This document shows positions 8,883-14,226 of a stretch of DNA of 33,686 nucleotides, piece by piece. Both the position numbers and the translations under genes were made by a program. Each line of letters opens with the position of its first letter. Positions within the stretch are counted from its first letter, which is position 1. Source of the stretch: an uncultured Rhodospirillales bacterium (GTDB lineage Bacteria; Pseudomonadota; Alphaproteobacteria; Acetobacterales; Acetobacteraceae); the NCBI GenBank assembly GCA_903843125.1, contig CAIMOR010000287.1:1-33686 (forward strand). Reading direction: 5' to 3'. Under the pieces are notes generated by a model. The model worked only from the letters and a program-made list of their open reading frames with translations, had not been told where the DNA came from and made no database searches.

Positions 8883-9697
8883 GGCTGCGCCTGGGCCTGC
8901 TGCTGCTCGGCGGCATGGCGCTGGCCGCGCTGCTGGCGCCGGCGGTGGCCGCGCTGCTGGGGCATGACGCCGACCTGCCGGACCTGTTCAACCGCTTCGC
9001 CGCGCCCAGCCTGGACCACCCGCTGGGCACCGACGACCTGGGGAGGGACATGCTGCTGCGGCTGCTCTACGGCGCCCGCGTTTCGCTGGTGGTGGGGCTG
9101 GCGGTGGCGTTGGCGGCCACCGGGCTGGGCACCGCGCTTGGCCTGCTGGCGGCCTGGCGCGGCGGCTGGGTGGATGCTTTGCTGATGCGGCTGGCGGATG
9201 GGCTGCTGGCCCTGCCCGCGCTGCCGCTGCTGGTGGTGCTGGCGGCGGTGGACCCGGCCAAGCTCGGCCTGCCGCGGGGCGAGGCCAGCACCGACATCCT
9301 GCGCATCACCGTGATCCTGACGCTGTTCGGCTGGGTCGGCGTGGCGCGGCTGGCTCGCGCGGCGGCGCTGAGCGAGATGGCGAAGGACTACGTGGCCGCG
9401 GCCCGGGTCTGCGGCGCCAGCGAAGCCCGGCTGATGTGGCGCCACATCCTGCCCAACATCAGCGGGCCGATCGTGGTGGCGGCGACGCTGGCGGTGGCCG
9501 GGGCGATCCTTGCCGAAAGCACGCTGAGCTTCCTCGGCCTGGGCATCGCTCCGCCGGCGTCCAGCTGGGGCAACATGCTGTCCAACGCCCAGGAGCTGGT
9601 GTTTTCCGCGCCGCTCACGGCCGTGTGGCCGGGGTTGGCGATATTGCTGACCGTGGCCGGCTGCTCACTGCTGGCCGATGGGGTGCGCCGGCGCTGA
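8879..9697 (+). CDS. ABC transporter permease, dipeptide/oligopeptide type (DppC-like)
   Basis: A 272-residue partner permease. It starts with GTG inside the stop of dppB (GTGA), a clear sign of translational coupling. After the first helix comes the DppC motif SLDHPLGTDDLGRDML, then membrane helices and the EAA loop with AKDYVAAARVCGASEARLMWRHILPN. The C-terminus has the typical STLSFLGLGIAPPASSWGNML. The protein is a little shorter at the N-terminus than most DppC proteins (about 290-300 aa). Its 3' end overlaps the 3' end of the convergent Zur-type gene by 33 nt. Substrate (peptides, nickel, glutathione or opines) is undetermined. Confidence 0.92.
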   Translation: MRLRLGLLLLGGMALAALLAPAVAALLGHDADLPDLFNRFAAPSLDHPLGTDDLGRDMLLRLLYGARVSLVVGLAVALAATGLGTALGLLAAWRGGWVDALLMRLADGLLALPALPLLVVLAAVDPAKLGLPRGEASTDILRITVILTLFGWVGVARLARAAALSEMAKDYVAAARVCGASEARLMWRHILPNISGPIVVAATLAVAGAILAESTLSFLGLGIAPPASSWGNMLSNAQELVFSAPLTAVWPGLAILLTVAGCSLLADGVRRR

Positions 9698-10156
9698 ACA
9701 GCGACCGCAGACGCCTTCCATCTCCACCGTCGCCCGCGCCAGCGCGAAGCCAGCCCGTGCCGCGGCCTTTTCCAGCGCGTGGGAGACCGCGTGGTCGCTG
9801 ATCTCCACCGTGGCGCCGCAACGCTGGCAGATCAGGAATTGGTGCGGGTGGTCGTGCTCGGCCGGGCAGGCGCAGTCGGCCGGGTGGTCCAGCGCGTCGG
9901 CGCAGCCCACGAAGGCGTTCAGCCGCTCCACCTTGTGGATCAACCCCTGGTCCAGCAGGAAATCCAGCGCCCGGTACACCGTGGGCGGCGCGGCGCCGGC
10001 GCGCTCGGCCTTCAGCTTGTCCAGCAGGGCGTAGGCGCCCAGGGGCTGGTCGCTGGCCAGCACCAGCGCCAGCACCTGGCGGCGCAGCGCCGTCAGCTGC
10101 GCCCCCCGGCGGGCACACAGCGCCTCGGCGCGATCCAGCAATTCCAGCGTGGCCAT
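9665..10156 (-). CDS. zur: Fur-family transcriptional regulator, Zur-like
   Basis: A 163-residue Fur-family repressor: an N-terminal winged helix with the DNA-contact segment PPTVYRALDFL and a C-terminal dimerisation/metal domain. The structural zinc site is intact as two CxxC pairs, FLICQRC and GVCGRC. A His-rich sensor segment (AEHDHPHQF) precedes the first. Divergence from a COG0523 operon favours Zur (zinc) over Fur (iron). I prefer the ATG at 10156, which has AAGGA 7 nt upstream; an in-frame ATG at 10177 would add 7 residues but leave only 18 nt to the divergent hisI start. Its gene ends inside dppC by a 33-nt convergent overlap. It probably represses the neighbouring operon when zinc is ample; that is inference. 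Confidence 0.88.
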   Translation of the reverse strand: MATLELLDRAEALCARRGAQLTALRRQVLALVLASDQPLGAYALLDKLKAERAGAAPPTVYRALDFLLDQGLIHKVERLNAFVGCADALDHPADCACPAEHDHPHQFLICQRCGATVEISDHAVSHALEKAAARAGFALARATVEMEGVCGRCSAPAHPIGQQ

Positions 10157-10182
10157 GCTCTCGTCCTTTGGCGCCATACCAC

Positions 10183-10192
10183 CCTATATAGG
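10183..10192. promoter_or_regulatory. CCTATATAGG palindrome between zur and hisI
   Basis: A perfect 10-bp AT-centred palindrome lies in the 39-nt region between the divergent zur and hisI start codons. Its TATATA could serve as a -10 element in both directions. It ends 3 nt before the hisI ATG, so a hisI transcript started from it would be nearly leaderless. No clear -35 box and no familiar Zur box were found. Confidence 0.4.
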
Positions 10193-10195
10193 CGC

Positions 10196-10627
10196 ATGAC
10201 CGCGTTCCAGAGCTTGCTACCTCCCCTTGCCGACCCCGCCGCCCGCAGCGCCTTCGCCGACGCCGTGCGCTTCGACGCCCGCGGCCTGGTGCCGGTAGTG
10301 GCCCAGCAGCACGACAGCGGCGAGGTGCTGATGCTGGCGTACATGAACCGCGAGGCGCTGCTGGAGACGCTGGAGACCGGCCGGGTCTGCTACTTCAGCC
10401 GCAGCCGCGGCGGGCTGTGGCGCAAGGGGGAGACCAGCGGCCAGCAGCAGCACCTGGTTGACCTGCGGCTGGACTGCGACGGCGACACGCTGCTGGCGCT
10501 GGTGGACCAGCACGGCGTCGCCTGCCACACCGGACGGCGCAACTGCTTCTTCGTGGCGCTGCGCGACGGCAAGCTGACCGAGATCGCCGCGCCGCTGGTC
10601 TCGCCGGAGGAGCTGTACCGCAAATGA
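10196..10627 (+). CDS. hisI: Phosphoribosyl-AMP cyclohydrolase
   Basis: A 143-residue HisI, which opens the adenine ring of phosphoribosyl-AMP in histidine biosynthesis. The Mg2+ site D93-C94-D95-G-D97 and the zinc cysteines C94, C110 (ACHTG) and C117 (NCFF) are all present, so this is the zinc-containing form. The substrate-binding segment [16 protein letters not shown] (67-82) is intact. It lacks a fused HisE domain, as usual in Alphaproteobacteria. The gene is not in a his operon: it is divergent from zur and overlaps the COG0523 GTPase gene by ATGA. That context suggests a role tied to zinc supply, perhaps as a client of the GTPase or as a second, regulated copy. Confidence 0.93.
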
Positions 10628-11697
10628 AGGCCCCGGTTCCCGTCACGGTGCTGACCGGCTTCCTCGGCGCCGGCAAGACCACGCTGCTGAACAAGCTGCT
10701 GAAGCGGCCTGAGCTGGCCGAGACCGCCGTGCTGGTCAACGAGTTCGGCGAGGTGGGCCTGGACCACCTGCTGGTGGAGAAGCTGGACGACGACACCGTG
10801 CTGCTGAACAGCGGGTGCCTGTGCTGCACGGTGCGCGGCGACCTGGTGCGGGCGCTGCGCGACCTCGCGGTGAAGATCGAGCACGGCAAGGTCATTCGCC
10901 GCGTGGTGGTGGAAACCACCGGCCTGGCCGACCCGGCGCCGATATTGCAGACGCTGATGAGCGACCCGCTGGTGCTGTACCACTACCGGCTTGATGGCGT
11001 GGTGACGCTGGTGGATGCGGTGAATGCGCCCGCCACGCTGGACGCCCAGCCGGAGGCGGTGAAGCAGGTGGCGGTGGCCGACCGGGTCGTGGTGACCAAG
11101 TCTGACCTGGCCATGCCCGAGCAGATCTTGCCGCTGTGGCAGCGGCTGCGGGCGCTGAACCCCGGCGCGCCGATGCTGAACATCCTGCATGGCGAGATCG
11201 AGCCGGACCAGCTGCTGAACTGCGGCCTGTACGACAGCACGCAGAAGCACCCGCAGGTGCAGAAGTGGCTGGACCACGAGGCCTTCCACGCTGCTTCGGG
11301 CGCGCATTCGCACGACCACGACCACCATCACCACGACCCCAACCGGCACGACGCGCGCATCCACAGCTTCTGCCTGACCTTCGACGAGCCGCTGCCGTGG
11401 GACGGCCTGGCCACCTGGCTGGAGGTGCTGGCCATGACCAAGGGCGAGAACCTGCTGCGGATGAAGGCGATCCTGAACCTGCAGGGCGAATCGCAGCCCA
11501 TCGCCATCCACGCCGTGCAGCACCTGTTCCACCCGCCGGTGAAGCTGGCGGCCTGGCCGGAAGGCGATACGCGGCAGTCCCGCCTGGTCTTCATCCTGCG
11601 CGACCTGGACCGCGCCACGGTGGAGAACGGGCTGCGCGCCTTCGTCCAGGCCGCCGCCGAGGAAGCCCGGATCAGCGCGGGTGCCGCCCGGGTTTGA
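10624..11697 (+). CDS. COG0523-family GTPase, putative zinc chaperone (CobW/ZagA/YjiA type)
   Basis: A 357-residue G3E P-loop GTPase. The Walker A loop is GFLGAGKTT (12-20), the family metal site CxCC is C65-L-C67-C68, the switch/Walker B region is [10 protein letters not shown] (97-106), and the guanine-specificity motif is TKSD (158-161). A His-rich loop at about 227-242 ([10 protein letters not shown]) would bind several metal ions, and a CobW C-terminal domain follows. COG0523 proteins linked to Zur deliver zinc to client enzymes under shortage. Here the start overlaps hisI by 4 nt and zur is divergent, so a zinc role is likelier than a cobalt (CobW) or nitrile hydratase role. Cytosolic. 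No cobalamin genes are near. Confidence 0.93.
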
Positions 11698-11750: not shown

Positions 11751-12401
11751 ATGCCGCTGACCATGCCGGAAGAGCTGATGCTGCTGATGCTGGACGACGC
11801 CACCGGCCGGCTGATGGAACGGGCCATGCCCGCCGGCGACTTCGCGCTCGCCGGCGCAGCGCTTTCGGAGCTTGCATTGGCAGGGCGGATCGACAGCGAC
11901 CCGCAGCGGCTCTACGTCACCGACCCGACGCCGACCGGCGACCCGCTGCTGGACGGCGTGCTGGCGCGGCTCGGCAGCCTGTTGCAGCCGCAGGACACGC
12001 GCGGCTGGATCGAGACCCTGGCGATGGATGCGGCCGAAATGCGCGACGCGCTGTTCGCCCGGCTGGTGGCCGCGGGCGTGCTGCGGCAGCAGGACAGCCG
12101 CTTCCTGTGGTTCTTCTCCGAACGGCGCTACCCGCAGGCCAGTGGCCGCGAGGAGCGCGAGGTCAAGGCCCGGCTGCTCGGCGTGCTGTTCAACGACGAC
12201 ATTCCCGATACGCGGGACGTACTGCTGATCGGGCTGGCGCGGGCGGCGAACCTGTTCGCGGTGATCCTCTCGGAGGAGGAGTTGCAGCGCGCCCAGCCCC
12301 GGATCGACCAGGTGGCCGATTTCGAGGAGATCAACCGCGCCCTGGCCGCGGCCGTGCGCGACATTCTCGGCCAGGTGGCACGCTACGCGTTCCTGGCATG
12401 A
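11751..12401 (+). CDS. GPP34 (GOLPH3/Vps74-like) domain protein
   Basis: A 216-residue, mostly helical protein matching the GPP34 family, whose eukaryotic members (GOLPH3, Vps74) bind phosphatidylinositol-4-phosphate and retain Golgi glycosyltransferases. The N-terminal signature MPEELMLLMLDDATGRLM is clear. Later segments carry DRFLWFF-like and ARLLGVLFNDDIPDTRDVLLIGL features of the family, and a hydrophobic hairpin is possible in ARAANLFAVIL. Bacterial members have no settled role. I chose ATG 11751 with AGGAG about 10 nt upstream; ATG 11763 is an alternative. It starts 53 nt after the COG0523 gene and overlaps the nitrilase-like gene by ATGA, with lpxB next, so a function at the membrane or in glycolipid assembly is an attractive guess. 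Confidence 0.85.
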   Translation: MPLTMPEELMLLMLDDATGRLMERAMPAGDFALAGAALSELALAGRIDSDPQRLYVTDPTPTGDPLLDGVLARLGSLLQPQDTRGWIETLAMDAAEMRDALFARLVAAGVLRQQDSRFLWFFSERRYPQASGREEREVKARLLGVLFNDDIPDTRDVLLIGLARAANLFAVILSEEELQRAQPRIDQVADFEEINRALAAAVRDILGQVARYAFLA

Positions 12402-13084
12402 AGCCGCTGCGCCTGGGCCTGCTGGCCGAATGCCCGGCCAACCCGGCGGCCCTGGACGCCCGGCTGACCGAAGCGGCGGGACAGGCCGACCTGCTGGTAC
12501 TGCCGGAAGGCCTCGGCGTGACCGAGCCCAGCCTGCGTGATTCCGCCCTTCGCCATGGCGTCTGGCTGGTCGGCGGCAGCCTGGTGCGCCTGGCCGGGCG
12601 CGCCGCTCCGCTGCTGACCCCGGCCGGCCGCTGCGCCTGGCAGGACCAGCACCAGCCCATCGACGCCCGCTGGGGCGCCGACCCCGCGGTGTTCGAGACG
12701 CCGTGGGGGCGGCTCGGCATCTCGCTGGGGGCCGACCTTGAATTCCCCAAGCACGCGCGGGCACAGGTGGAAGCCGGCGCCTGGCTGATCCTCTCCCCGG
12801 CCGGCGCCGCAGCCGACCACGCCGGGGAAAGGCTGCGGCTTTCGGCCCGCACGAGGGCGATGGAGAATCGCTGCTTCATCGCGCTGGCCCCGGCCGCGGG
12901 GGAAGCGCTGGTGCTCGGCCCGCTGGAAGCCGGCTTCCCGGCCGATGGCATCCTGGCGCGCGGCGTCGCCGGCTGGGTCTTCGCCACGCTCGACCCGGCG
13001 CGGCTGCTGCCCGCCGCTGCGCTCGGCCCCCGGCAATGGCCACGGGCGCCGGTCCCGATGCCCCAACCCGCCGAGTTCCGATGA
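12398..13084 (+). CDS. Nitrilase/carbon-nitrogen hydrolase-fold protein, probably catalytically inactive
   Basis: A 228-residue protein with the backbone of the nitrilase superfamily: the first strand MKPLRLGLLAE, the Glu motif VLPEGLGV, the segment FETPWGRLGISLGADLEFPKHAR, and RTRAMENRCFIALAP. The family's catalytic triad is Glu-Lys-Cys. The Glu is present, but at the Cys position (normally ICYDLEFP) the sequence reads LGADLEFP, so Cys is Gly. At the Lys position (YRKxHL) it reads WQDQHQP, so Lys is gone too. It is also shorter than most family members (260-280 aa). It overlaps GPP34 and lpxB by ATGA on each side. It may be a scaffold or a binding protein rather than an amidase. Confidence 0.8.
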   Translation: MKPLRLGLLAECPANPAALDARLTEAAGQADLLVLPEGLGVTEPSLRDSALRHGVWLVGGSLVRLAGRAAPLLTPAGRCAWQDQHQPIDARWGADPAVFETPWGRLGISLGADLEFPKHARAQVEAGAWLILSPAGAAADHAGERLRLSARTRAMENRCFIALAPAAGEALVLGPLEAGFPADGILARGVAGWVFATLDPARLLPAAALGPRQWPRAPVPMPQPAEFR

Positions 13085-14226
13085 CCCTGATCTACCTGCT
13101 GGCCGGCGAGGCCTCCGGCGACCTGCTCGGCGGCCGGCTGATGGCGGCGCTGCGGCGGCGCCGGCCCGACCTGGCCTTCGCCGGCGTCGGCGGCGAGCGC
13201 ATGGCGGCGCAGGGCCTGCACAGCCTGTTCCCGATGCATGAGCTGGCGCTGTTCGGCTTTCTCGAAGTGCTGCCCAAGCTGCGCGGGCTGCGCCGCCGCA
13301 TGGCGGAGGCCGAGGCCGACATCTTGGCCCGCCGGCCGGCATTGCTGGTCACCATCGACGCGCCCGGCTTCACGCTGCGGCTGGCAGCGCGGGTACGGCC
13401 GCAGGGGATCAAGGTGCTGCACTACGTCGCGCCGCAGCTGTGGGCCTGGCGCCCGGGGCGGGTGGCGAAGCTGAAGCAGCGCGTCGACGAGGTGCTGGCG
13501 CTGCTGCCCTTCGAGCCGGCCTTCTTCGAGCGGCATGGCCTGGCCGTGAGGTTCGTCGGCCACCCGGTGCTGGAGGGCGGCGCCGATACCGGCGACGCCG
13601 CCCGCTTCCGCGCGGCGCACGGGCTGCGCCCGGAGGAGCCGGTGGTGCTGGTGATGCCCGGCAGCCGGCGGGGTGAGATTTCCCGCCTGCTGGGCGCCTT
13701 CGGCGAGGCGTTGCGCCTGGTGGCGGCCGAGGTGCCCGGCATTCGACCGGTGGTGCCCCTGGCCGGTGCCGTGGCGGAGACGGTGCGCGCGGGCACGCGG
13801 GACTGGCCGGTGCAGCCCATCCTGGTCAGCGACGCCGGCGACAAGCACGACGCCTACGCCGCCGCCGCTGCGGGGTTGATCAAGTCCGGCACGTCATCGC
13901 TGGAGGTGGCACTGGCCGGCGTGCCGCATGTGGTCGGCTACAGGCTGAACCCGGTCACGGCCTTCCTGGTGCGGCGGCTGATCCAGGTCCGCCACGTCTC
14001 CATCGTCAACCTGCTGGCCGAGCGTACCATTGCGCCGGAACTGCTGCTGGAACACTGCAACCCCCGCGAACTGGCCGACGCGCTGCTGCCGCTGCTGCGC
14101 GACACCGCGGTGGCCGAGGCGCAGCGCGCCGGCTTCCGCGAGGTGATGGGCACGCTGCGCCCAGCCGAGGGTCTGCCGAGCGAAGCCGCTGCCGCCGCCG
14201 TGCTGGAGATGCTGGAGCGCGGCTAG
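13081..14226 (+). CDS. lpxB: Lipid-A-disaccharide synthase
   Basis: A 381-residue GT19 enzyme that joins lipid X and UDP-2,3-diacylglucosamine to the beta-1,6 disaccharide of lipid A at the inner membrane. Signatures are the N-terminal LLAGEASGDLLGGRLM, VTIDAPGFTLRLA, HYVAPQLWAWRPGRV, VMPGSRRGEI and the acceptor/UDP segment LIKSGTSSLEVALAGVPHVV. The ATG at 13081 overlaps the stop of the nitrilase-like gene, and length is normal for LpxB (380-390 aa). In most Alphaproteobacteria lpxB follows lpxD-fabZ-lpxA-lpxI; here it ends a hisI-COG0523-GPP34 run instead. A strong hairpin terminator follows within 30 nt. Confidence 0.95.
   Translation: MTLIYLLAGEASGDLLGGRLMAALRRRRPDLAFAGVGGERMAAQGLHSLFPMHELALFGFLEVLPKLRGLRRRMAEAEADILARRPALLVTIDAPGFTLRLAARVRPQGIKVLHYVAPQLWAWRPGRVAKLKQRVDEVLALLPFEPAFFERHGLAVRFVGHPVLEGGADTGDAARFRAAHGLRPEEPVVLVMPGSRRGEISRLLGAFGEALRLVAAEVPGIRPVVPLAGAVAETVRAGTRDWPVQPILVSDAGDKHDAYAAAAAGLIKSGTSSLEVALAGVPHVVGYRLNPVTAFLVRRLIQVRHVSIVNLLAERTIAPELLLEHCNPRELADALLPLLRDTAVAEAQRAGFREVMGTLRPAEGLPSEAAAAAVLEMLERG

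Follow-up and report, generated by a model that had tools for sequence, protein, structure and literature searches.

A nitrilase-fold protein encoded directly before lpxB in an uncultured Acetobacteraceae bacterium has lost its catalytic residues and is probably a retained pseudoenzyme

The 33,686-nucleotide stretch of DNA analysed here (the window) encodes, between a GPP34 gene and lpxB, a protein of nitrilase descent in which the nucleophilic cysteine is glycine and the catalytic lysine is glutamine. We consider it very probable that this protein is a true pseudoenzyme, kept for a non-catalytic and probably interaction-based role. The initial annotation had proposed a retained, non-decaying pseudoenzyme, and the series of orthologues, the dN/dS values and the fold prediction described below all support that proposal. 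The features concerned are collected in Table 1.

Table 1. Coordinates in the window of the pseudo-nitrilase gene, its neighbours and the codons and helices discussed in the text (trio: the window, G003 and G004).
Feature	Position	Strand	Remarks
Pseudo-nitrilase ORF, 228 aa	12398..13084	+	ATG 12398, TGA 13082-13084; omega 0.137
GPP34 (Golgi phosphoprotein 3-like) gene	11751..12401	+	Pfam PF05719, E 1.1e-47
lpxB, lipid-A-disaccharide synthase	13081..14226	+	PF02684, E 3.4e-97; TIGR00215 above cut-off
ATGA overlap, GPP34 / pseudo-nitrilase	12398..12401	+	only in the Gly clade, which lacks the GNAT gene
ATGA overlap, pseudo-nitrilase / lpxB	13081..13084	+	ancestral; in many intact orthologues too
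E37 codon, ancestral catalytic Glu	12506..12508	+	kept in window; Q in G003, A in G004
Q84 codon (CAG), catalytic Lys column	12647..12649	+	K in 101/104, Gln in 3
A90 codon, second active-site Glu column	12665..12667	+	E in 102/104
G111 codon (GGG), nucleophile Cys column	12728..12730	+	C in 100/104, Gly in 4
Helix 117-127, inferred dimer-surface helix	12746..12778	+	11/11 residues identical in trio
Helix 141-158, inferred second dimer-surface helix	12818..12871	+	16/18 identical in trio

Membership of the nitrilase superfamily, claimed in the initial annotation on the basis of a by-eye alignment, was confirmed by profile, sequence and structure comparison. The window protein matches the Pfam CN_hydrolase profile (PF00795) with E = 1.5e-6 and 28.2 bits, above the cut-off of 23.2, and the sister proteins score 22.2 to 47.3 bits, the one from G004 falling slightly under the cut-off. 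All significant PDB matches by sequence belong to the nitrilase superfamily (best NitFhit, 1.5e-4), and the closest NCBIfam profile is NF043013 (deaminated glutathione amidase), at 37 bits against a cut-off of 500. Judged by the PF00795 match and the predicted fold, the protein is a member of the nitrilase (CN hydrolase) superfamily by descent. The ATGA overlaps reported on both sides of the gene are present, with GPP34 upstream and lpxB downstream. Further upstream (window 9665-11697), hisI and a gene for a His-rich COG0523/CobW GTPase diverge from a gene for a Zur-like repressor, whose best NCBIfam match is Zur, under cut-off. This arrangement, of the zinc-starvation type, lies immediately before the GPP34-pseudonitrilase-lpxB genes. 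This hisI is the sole copy in the genome, and hisI-cobW recurs at the same locus across Acetobacteraceae. The bacterial GPP34 (GOLPH3-like) gene follows cobW in several Acetobacteraceae genera and was found in only 11 of the 120 genomes sampled.

Structure prediction, suggested earlier as a check, returned a nitrilase fold. AlphaFold2, run with a 20-sequence alignment, gave a mean pLDDT of 86.9 and a pTM of 0.88 for the window protein (92.8 and 0.93 for the intact protein of G001), and the predicted structure is the alpha-beta-beta-alpha sandwich. For both models the best PDB match in Foldseek was mouse Nit2 (2w1v), which superposes on the window protein with a TM score of 0.79 and an rmsd of 2.6; the window model had 187 PDB matches at E ≤ 0.001, and the best 50 of the 187 are all nitrilase-superfamily entries. 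Compared with the intact protein, about 60 residues are missing: a helical stretch that follows the first Glu, residues flanking the second Glu, and a hairpin of 13 residues close to the pocket. The ORF shortens by in-frame deletions from 292 to 257 to about 227 aa. The initial annotation had overlooked both this deletion of loops and helices and the loss of the second active-site Glu. What is kept is unevenly distributed. Helix 117-127, directly after the former nucleophile elbow, retains 6/6 conserved positions and helix 141-158 just 6 of the 11 conserved in intact enzymes; the counts are 3/7 for the Lys loop and 0/3 for loop 136-140. These two post-nucleophile helices form what we take to be the main dimer interface of the nitrilase superfamily, and by analogy they may still serve dimerisation in the window protein, of which they are the best-conserved part. 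A scaffold or binding protein would be expected to show this pattern, with the interface preserved and the pocket given up.

The catalytic columns were read from an alignment of 104 distinct Acetobacteraceae sequences (window included), collected by whole-genome searches of the same genus, family and class and from named genomes. The sister genomes G001 to G004 are the MAGs Jr-11may16-217, JR-MC-C-240519-128, KT_bin-0655 and Jr-7aug17-12, respectively; the window, G003 and G004, the genomes without both Cys and Lys, are referred to as the trio. Gly111 and Gln84 fall without gaps on the Cys and Lys columns that are invariant among the 100 intact orthologues, so that the replacement of both canonical residues, first proposed by eye, now stands on an orthologue alignment. 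Gly at the nucleophile column occurs in exactly the window, G002, G003 and G004, which form one clade (support 0.993), and the sister of this clade is G001, with an intact 292-aa enzyme. At positions 37, 84, 90 and 111, G001 has E, K, E, C; G002 has E, K, E, G; G003 has Q, Q, E, G; G004 has A, Q, G, G; and the window has E, Q, A, G. In the window, E37 is all that remains of the Glu-Lys-Cys triad, and the second conserved active-site Glu, whose role has been described for MtCPA (PMC4812014), is Ala. As read from this alignment and its tree, the loss of catalytic residues is derived, recent and limited to one clade, and its order is nucleophile Cys first, then Lys, with both glutamates drifting independently. 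Given that drift among relatives, the Glu37 retained in the window is not a sign of residual catalysis.

A homologue search, suggested earlier to see whether the Gly is conserved among neighbours of lpxB, showed that it is not general there: 100 of the 104 orthologues carry Cys. Homologues with an intact Cys-Lys pair, which had been named as counting against a pseudoenzyme, do exist, but what they reveal is a recent loss restricted to one clade. A sequencing error behind Gly111 was rejected, since four separate assemblies concur. The other point raised at the outset, that the cysteine of MENRCFIAL might occupy the active site, was settled by the same alignment. That residue, C159, corresponds to the ancestral ENQC cysteine; it is invariant in 104/104 sequences and, being present in intact enzymes too, was rejected as a displaced nucleophile.

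Across Acetobacteraceae, the locus from which the gene descends has a GNAT acetyltransferase gene followed by the gene for an intact nitrilase of about 290 residues. In Roseomonas-type genera lpxB comes directly after the nitrilase, often with the same four-base overlap; in Acetobacter and Gluconacetobacter no lpxB was found in the stretch of sequence examined at the locus. We take these GNAT-linked carbon-nitrogen hydrolases to be the superfamily's Rim1-like branch. Of the 77 named intact loci, 76 have the GNAT gene next to the nitrilase (the exception is at a contig edge), and none of the pseudo loci has it there. A genome-wide search of six genomes of the genus with the G001 GNAT as query recovered it from G001 only, and not from G000 or G002-G005. 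As all four pseudo genomes belong to one clade, the loss of GNAT and the loss of the active site count as a single evolutionary event. Several other genera have GPP34 between cobW and GNAT. In G001, where the contig breaks off within GNAT, GPP34 was not found. The GNAT-nitrilase pair is conserved across Acetobacteraceae (loci L098-L177), mostly beside lpxB, suggesting a connection, so far undescribed, with the metabolism of lipid A or amino sugars. Literature searches returned no description of the function of the intact pair beside lpxB, and nothing relevant on GNAT-fused branches or on bacterial GPP34 with lipid A.

Selection on codons was estimated with a GY94 codon likelihood model (F3x4 frequencies, own code, bootstrap 95% intervals); the four-taxon fit for CobW did not converge and was left out. 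Within the trio, omega is 0.137 (95% 0.097-0.195) and omega = 1 is rejected (2ΔlnL 155), so the gene has been retained under purifying selection. This is about 2.5 times the value of neighbouring genes in the same trio (0.05-0.06 for GPP34, LpxB, CobW and HisI) and compares with 0.045-0.10 in sets of intact orthologues. By half, omega is 0.13 and 0.12, and it falls below 0.05 in segments 61-110 and 111-160, residues 61-160 being the most constrained; the last 29 codons (omega 0.69, not different from 1) look unconstrained. A branch model gave 0.086 for intact, 0.293 for transitional and 0.147 for within-trio branches, in agreement with a constraint that relaxed or shifted and was later renewed. 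Coding in another frame was rejected: most of the omegas obtained in false frames exceed 1, and the single antisense frame with a low value is low in control genes too and always lies above the sense value.

These values bear on whether the gene was merely relaxed recently and is on its way out, its purifying selection pre-dating the loss and its conservation in the trio being inherited, which we regard as improbable. Such a course would agree with a within-trio omega above that of both intact orthologues and neighbours and with the still higher transitional value, but omega was taken from branches that follow the loss of Cys and Lys and total about 1.5 substitutions per codon, where relaxation would give about 1, and it drops again after the transition. 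A possible disruption in G005 also speaks for this course. There, a mobile-element end lies about 30 bases before lpxB, at the expected nitrilase site (L092 1-178), about 10 nitrilase codons are visible before lpxB, and GNAT is missing too. The 150-base repeat involved is found again at the start of a G005 contig and in G004, where it lies beside what we recognised by eye as presumably IS21-like transposase fragments. It is probably the end of an IS21-like mobile element, and the element likely interrupts the nitrilase gene in G005, where the region lies at contig edges. If this interruption is real, that lineage can do without the pseudoenzyme.

The initial annotation had taken the ATGA overlaps as proof that the gene is not decaying. 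This argument does not carry, because the overlap with lpxB is already present in intact orthologues and is thus ancestral, and long open frames prove little at high GC. The same overlap, together with an ORF that keeps shrinking in frame and the near-neutral last 29 codons, would also fit a relic leader, an ORF that has no protein function and stays open only through translational coupling to lpxB. We hold this to be slightly less probable still than recent relaxation. Coupling requires an open frame only, yet both halves of the gene, and residues 61-160 above all, are under strong amino acid constraint, and in G005 lpxB is retained although hardly any nitrilase sequence is left immediately before it. 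It is this codon evidence, not the overlaps, that excludes a relic kept open for coupled translation. Least probable of all is an enzyme that has switched to another reaction using residues other than Glu-Lys-Cys: the trio shares many fixed derived residues (e.g. H85, Q86, P87, A112, R158) and D113 and C159 are invariant, but loops of the pocket have been deleted, neither glutamate is constant among close relatives, and no new conserved nucleophile appears, C159 being the ancestral strand cysteine.

The retained pseudoenzyme that we favour would have arisen from an intact GNAT-linked nitrilase upstream of lpxB, as in most Acetobacteraceae examined. The GNAT gene was lost in one clade, for which the isolate names of the sister genomes suggest a freshwater origin. 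In the nitrilase, Cys changed to Gly, Lys was lost next, selection on both glutamates then lapsed, and loops around the pocket were deleted. The product may still fold, and dimerise by way of the two conserved helices that follow the former nucleophile elbow. Translated together with GPP34 and LpxB, it could act in binding or as a scaffold; the support for this role is the retention of the presumed dimer helices. Its partner might be LpxB, GPP34 or a lipid A-related factor, which is a guess. The more specific idea of a dimeric scaffold or regulator, taken up after loss of GNAT and the active site and acting through LpxB and GPP34 on lipid A synthesis or membrane association, is possible but rather unlikely.

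Pseudoenzymes are common, yet the steps of their origin are seldom preserved. Here, a single genus holds the intact enzyme, a copy that has lost the nucleophile only and copies in which nearly the whole active site is gone, and the codons of this series give evidence of a selection that first eased and later resumed. The intact GNAT-nitrilase pair beside lpxB becomes a target for study as well. Our literature searches turned up neither a reported pseudoenzyme of the nitrilase superfamily nor, for this superfamily, a described non-catalytic function of the lipid A scaffold kind. The protein is thus ordinary as a kind, and unusual within its superfamily (for the literature searched) and in the preservation of its steps of loss. 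Pseudoenzymes in general are described, in one review (PMC10211241), as keeping the fold and losing catalytic residues while being retained under selection; to that extent the window protein resembles them, and its catalytic motif is lost while orthologues keep it (4/104 without Cys). Among solved structures, the closest fold is that of Nit2, a deaminated glutathione amidase (2w1v), whose catalytic residues the window protein lacks. The intact GNAT-linked carbon-nitrogen hydrolases of Roseomonas-type genera, Gluconacetobacter and Acetobacter are orthologous by tree and share the fold, and mostly occupy the same locus, GNAT-nitrilase-lpxB, often with the same ATGA overlap. They have E, K, E and C, are about 290 aa long and are encoded next to a GNAT gene, whereas the proteins of the Gly clade are without the Cys, mostly without the Lys, about 60 residues shorter and without the GNAT gene.
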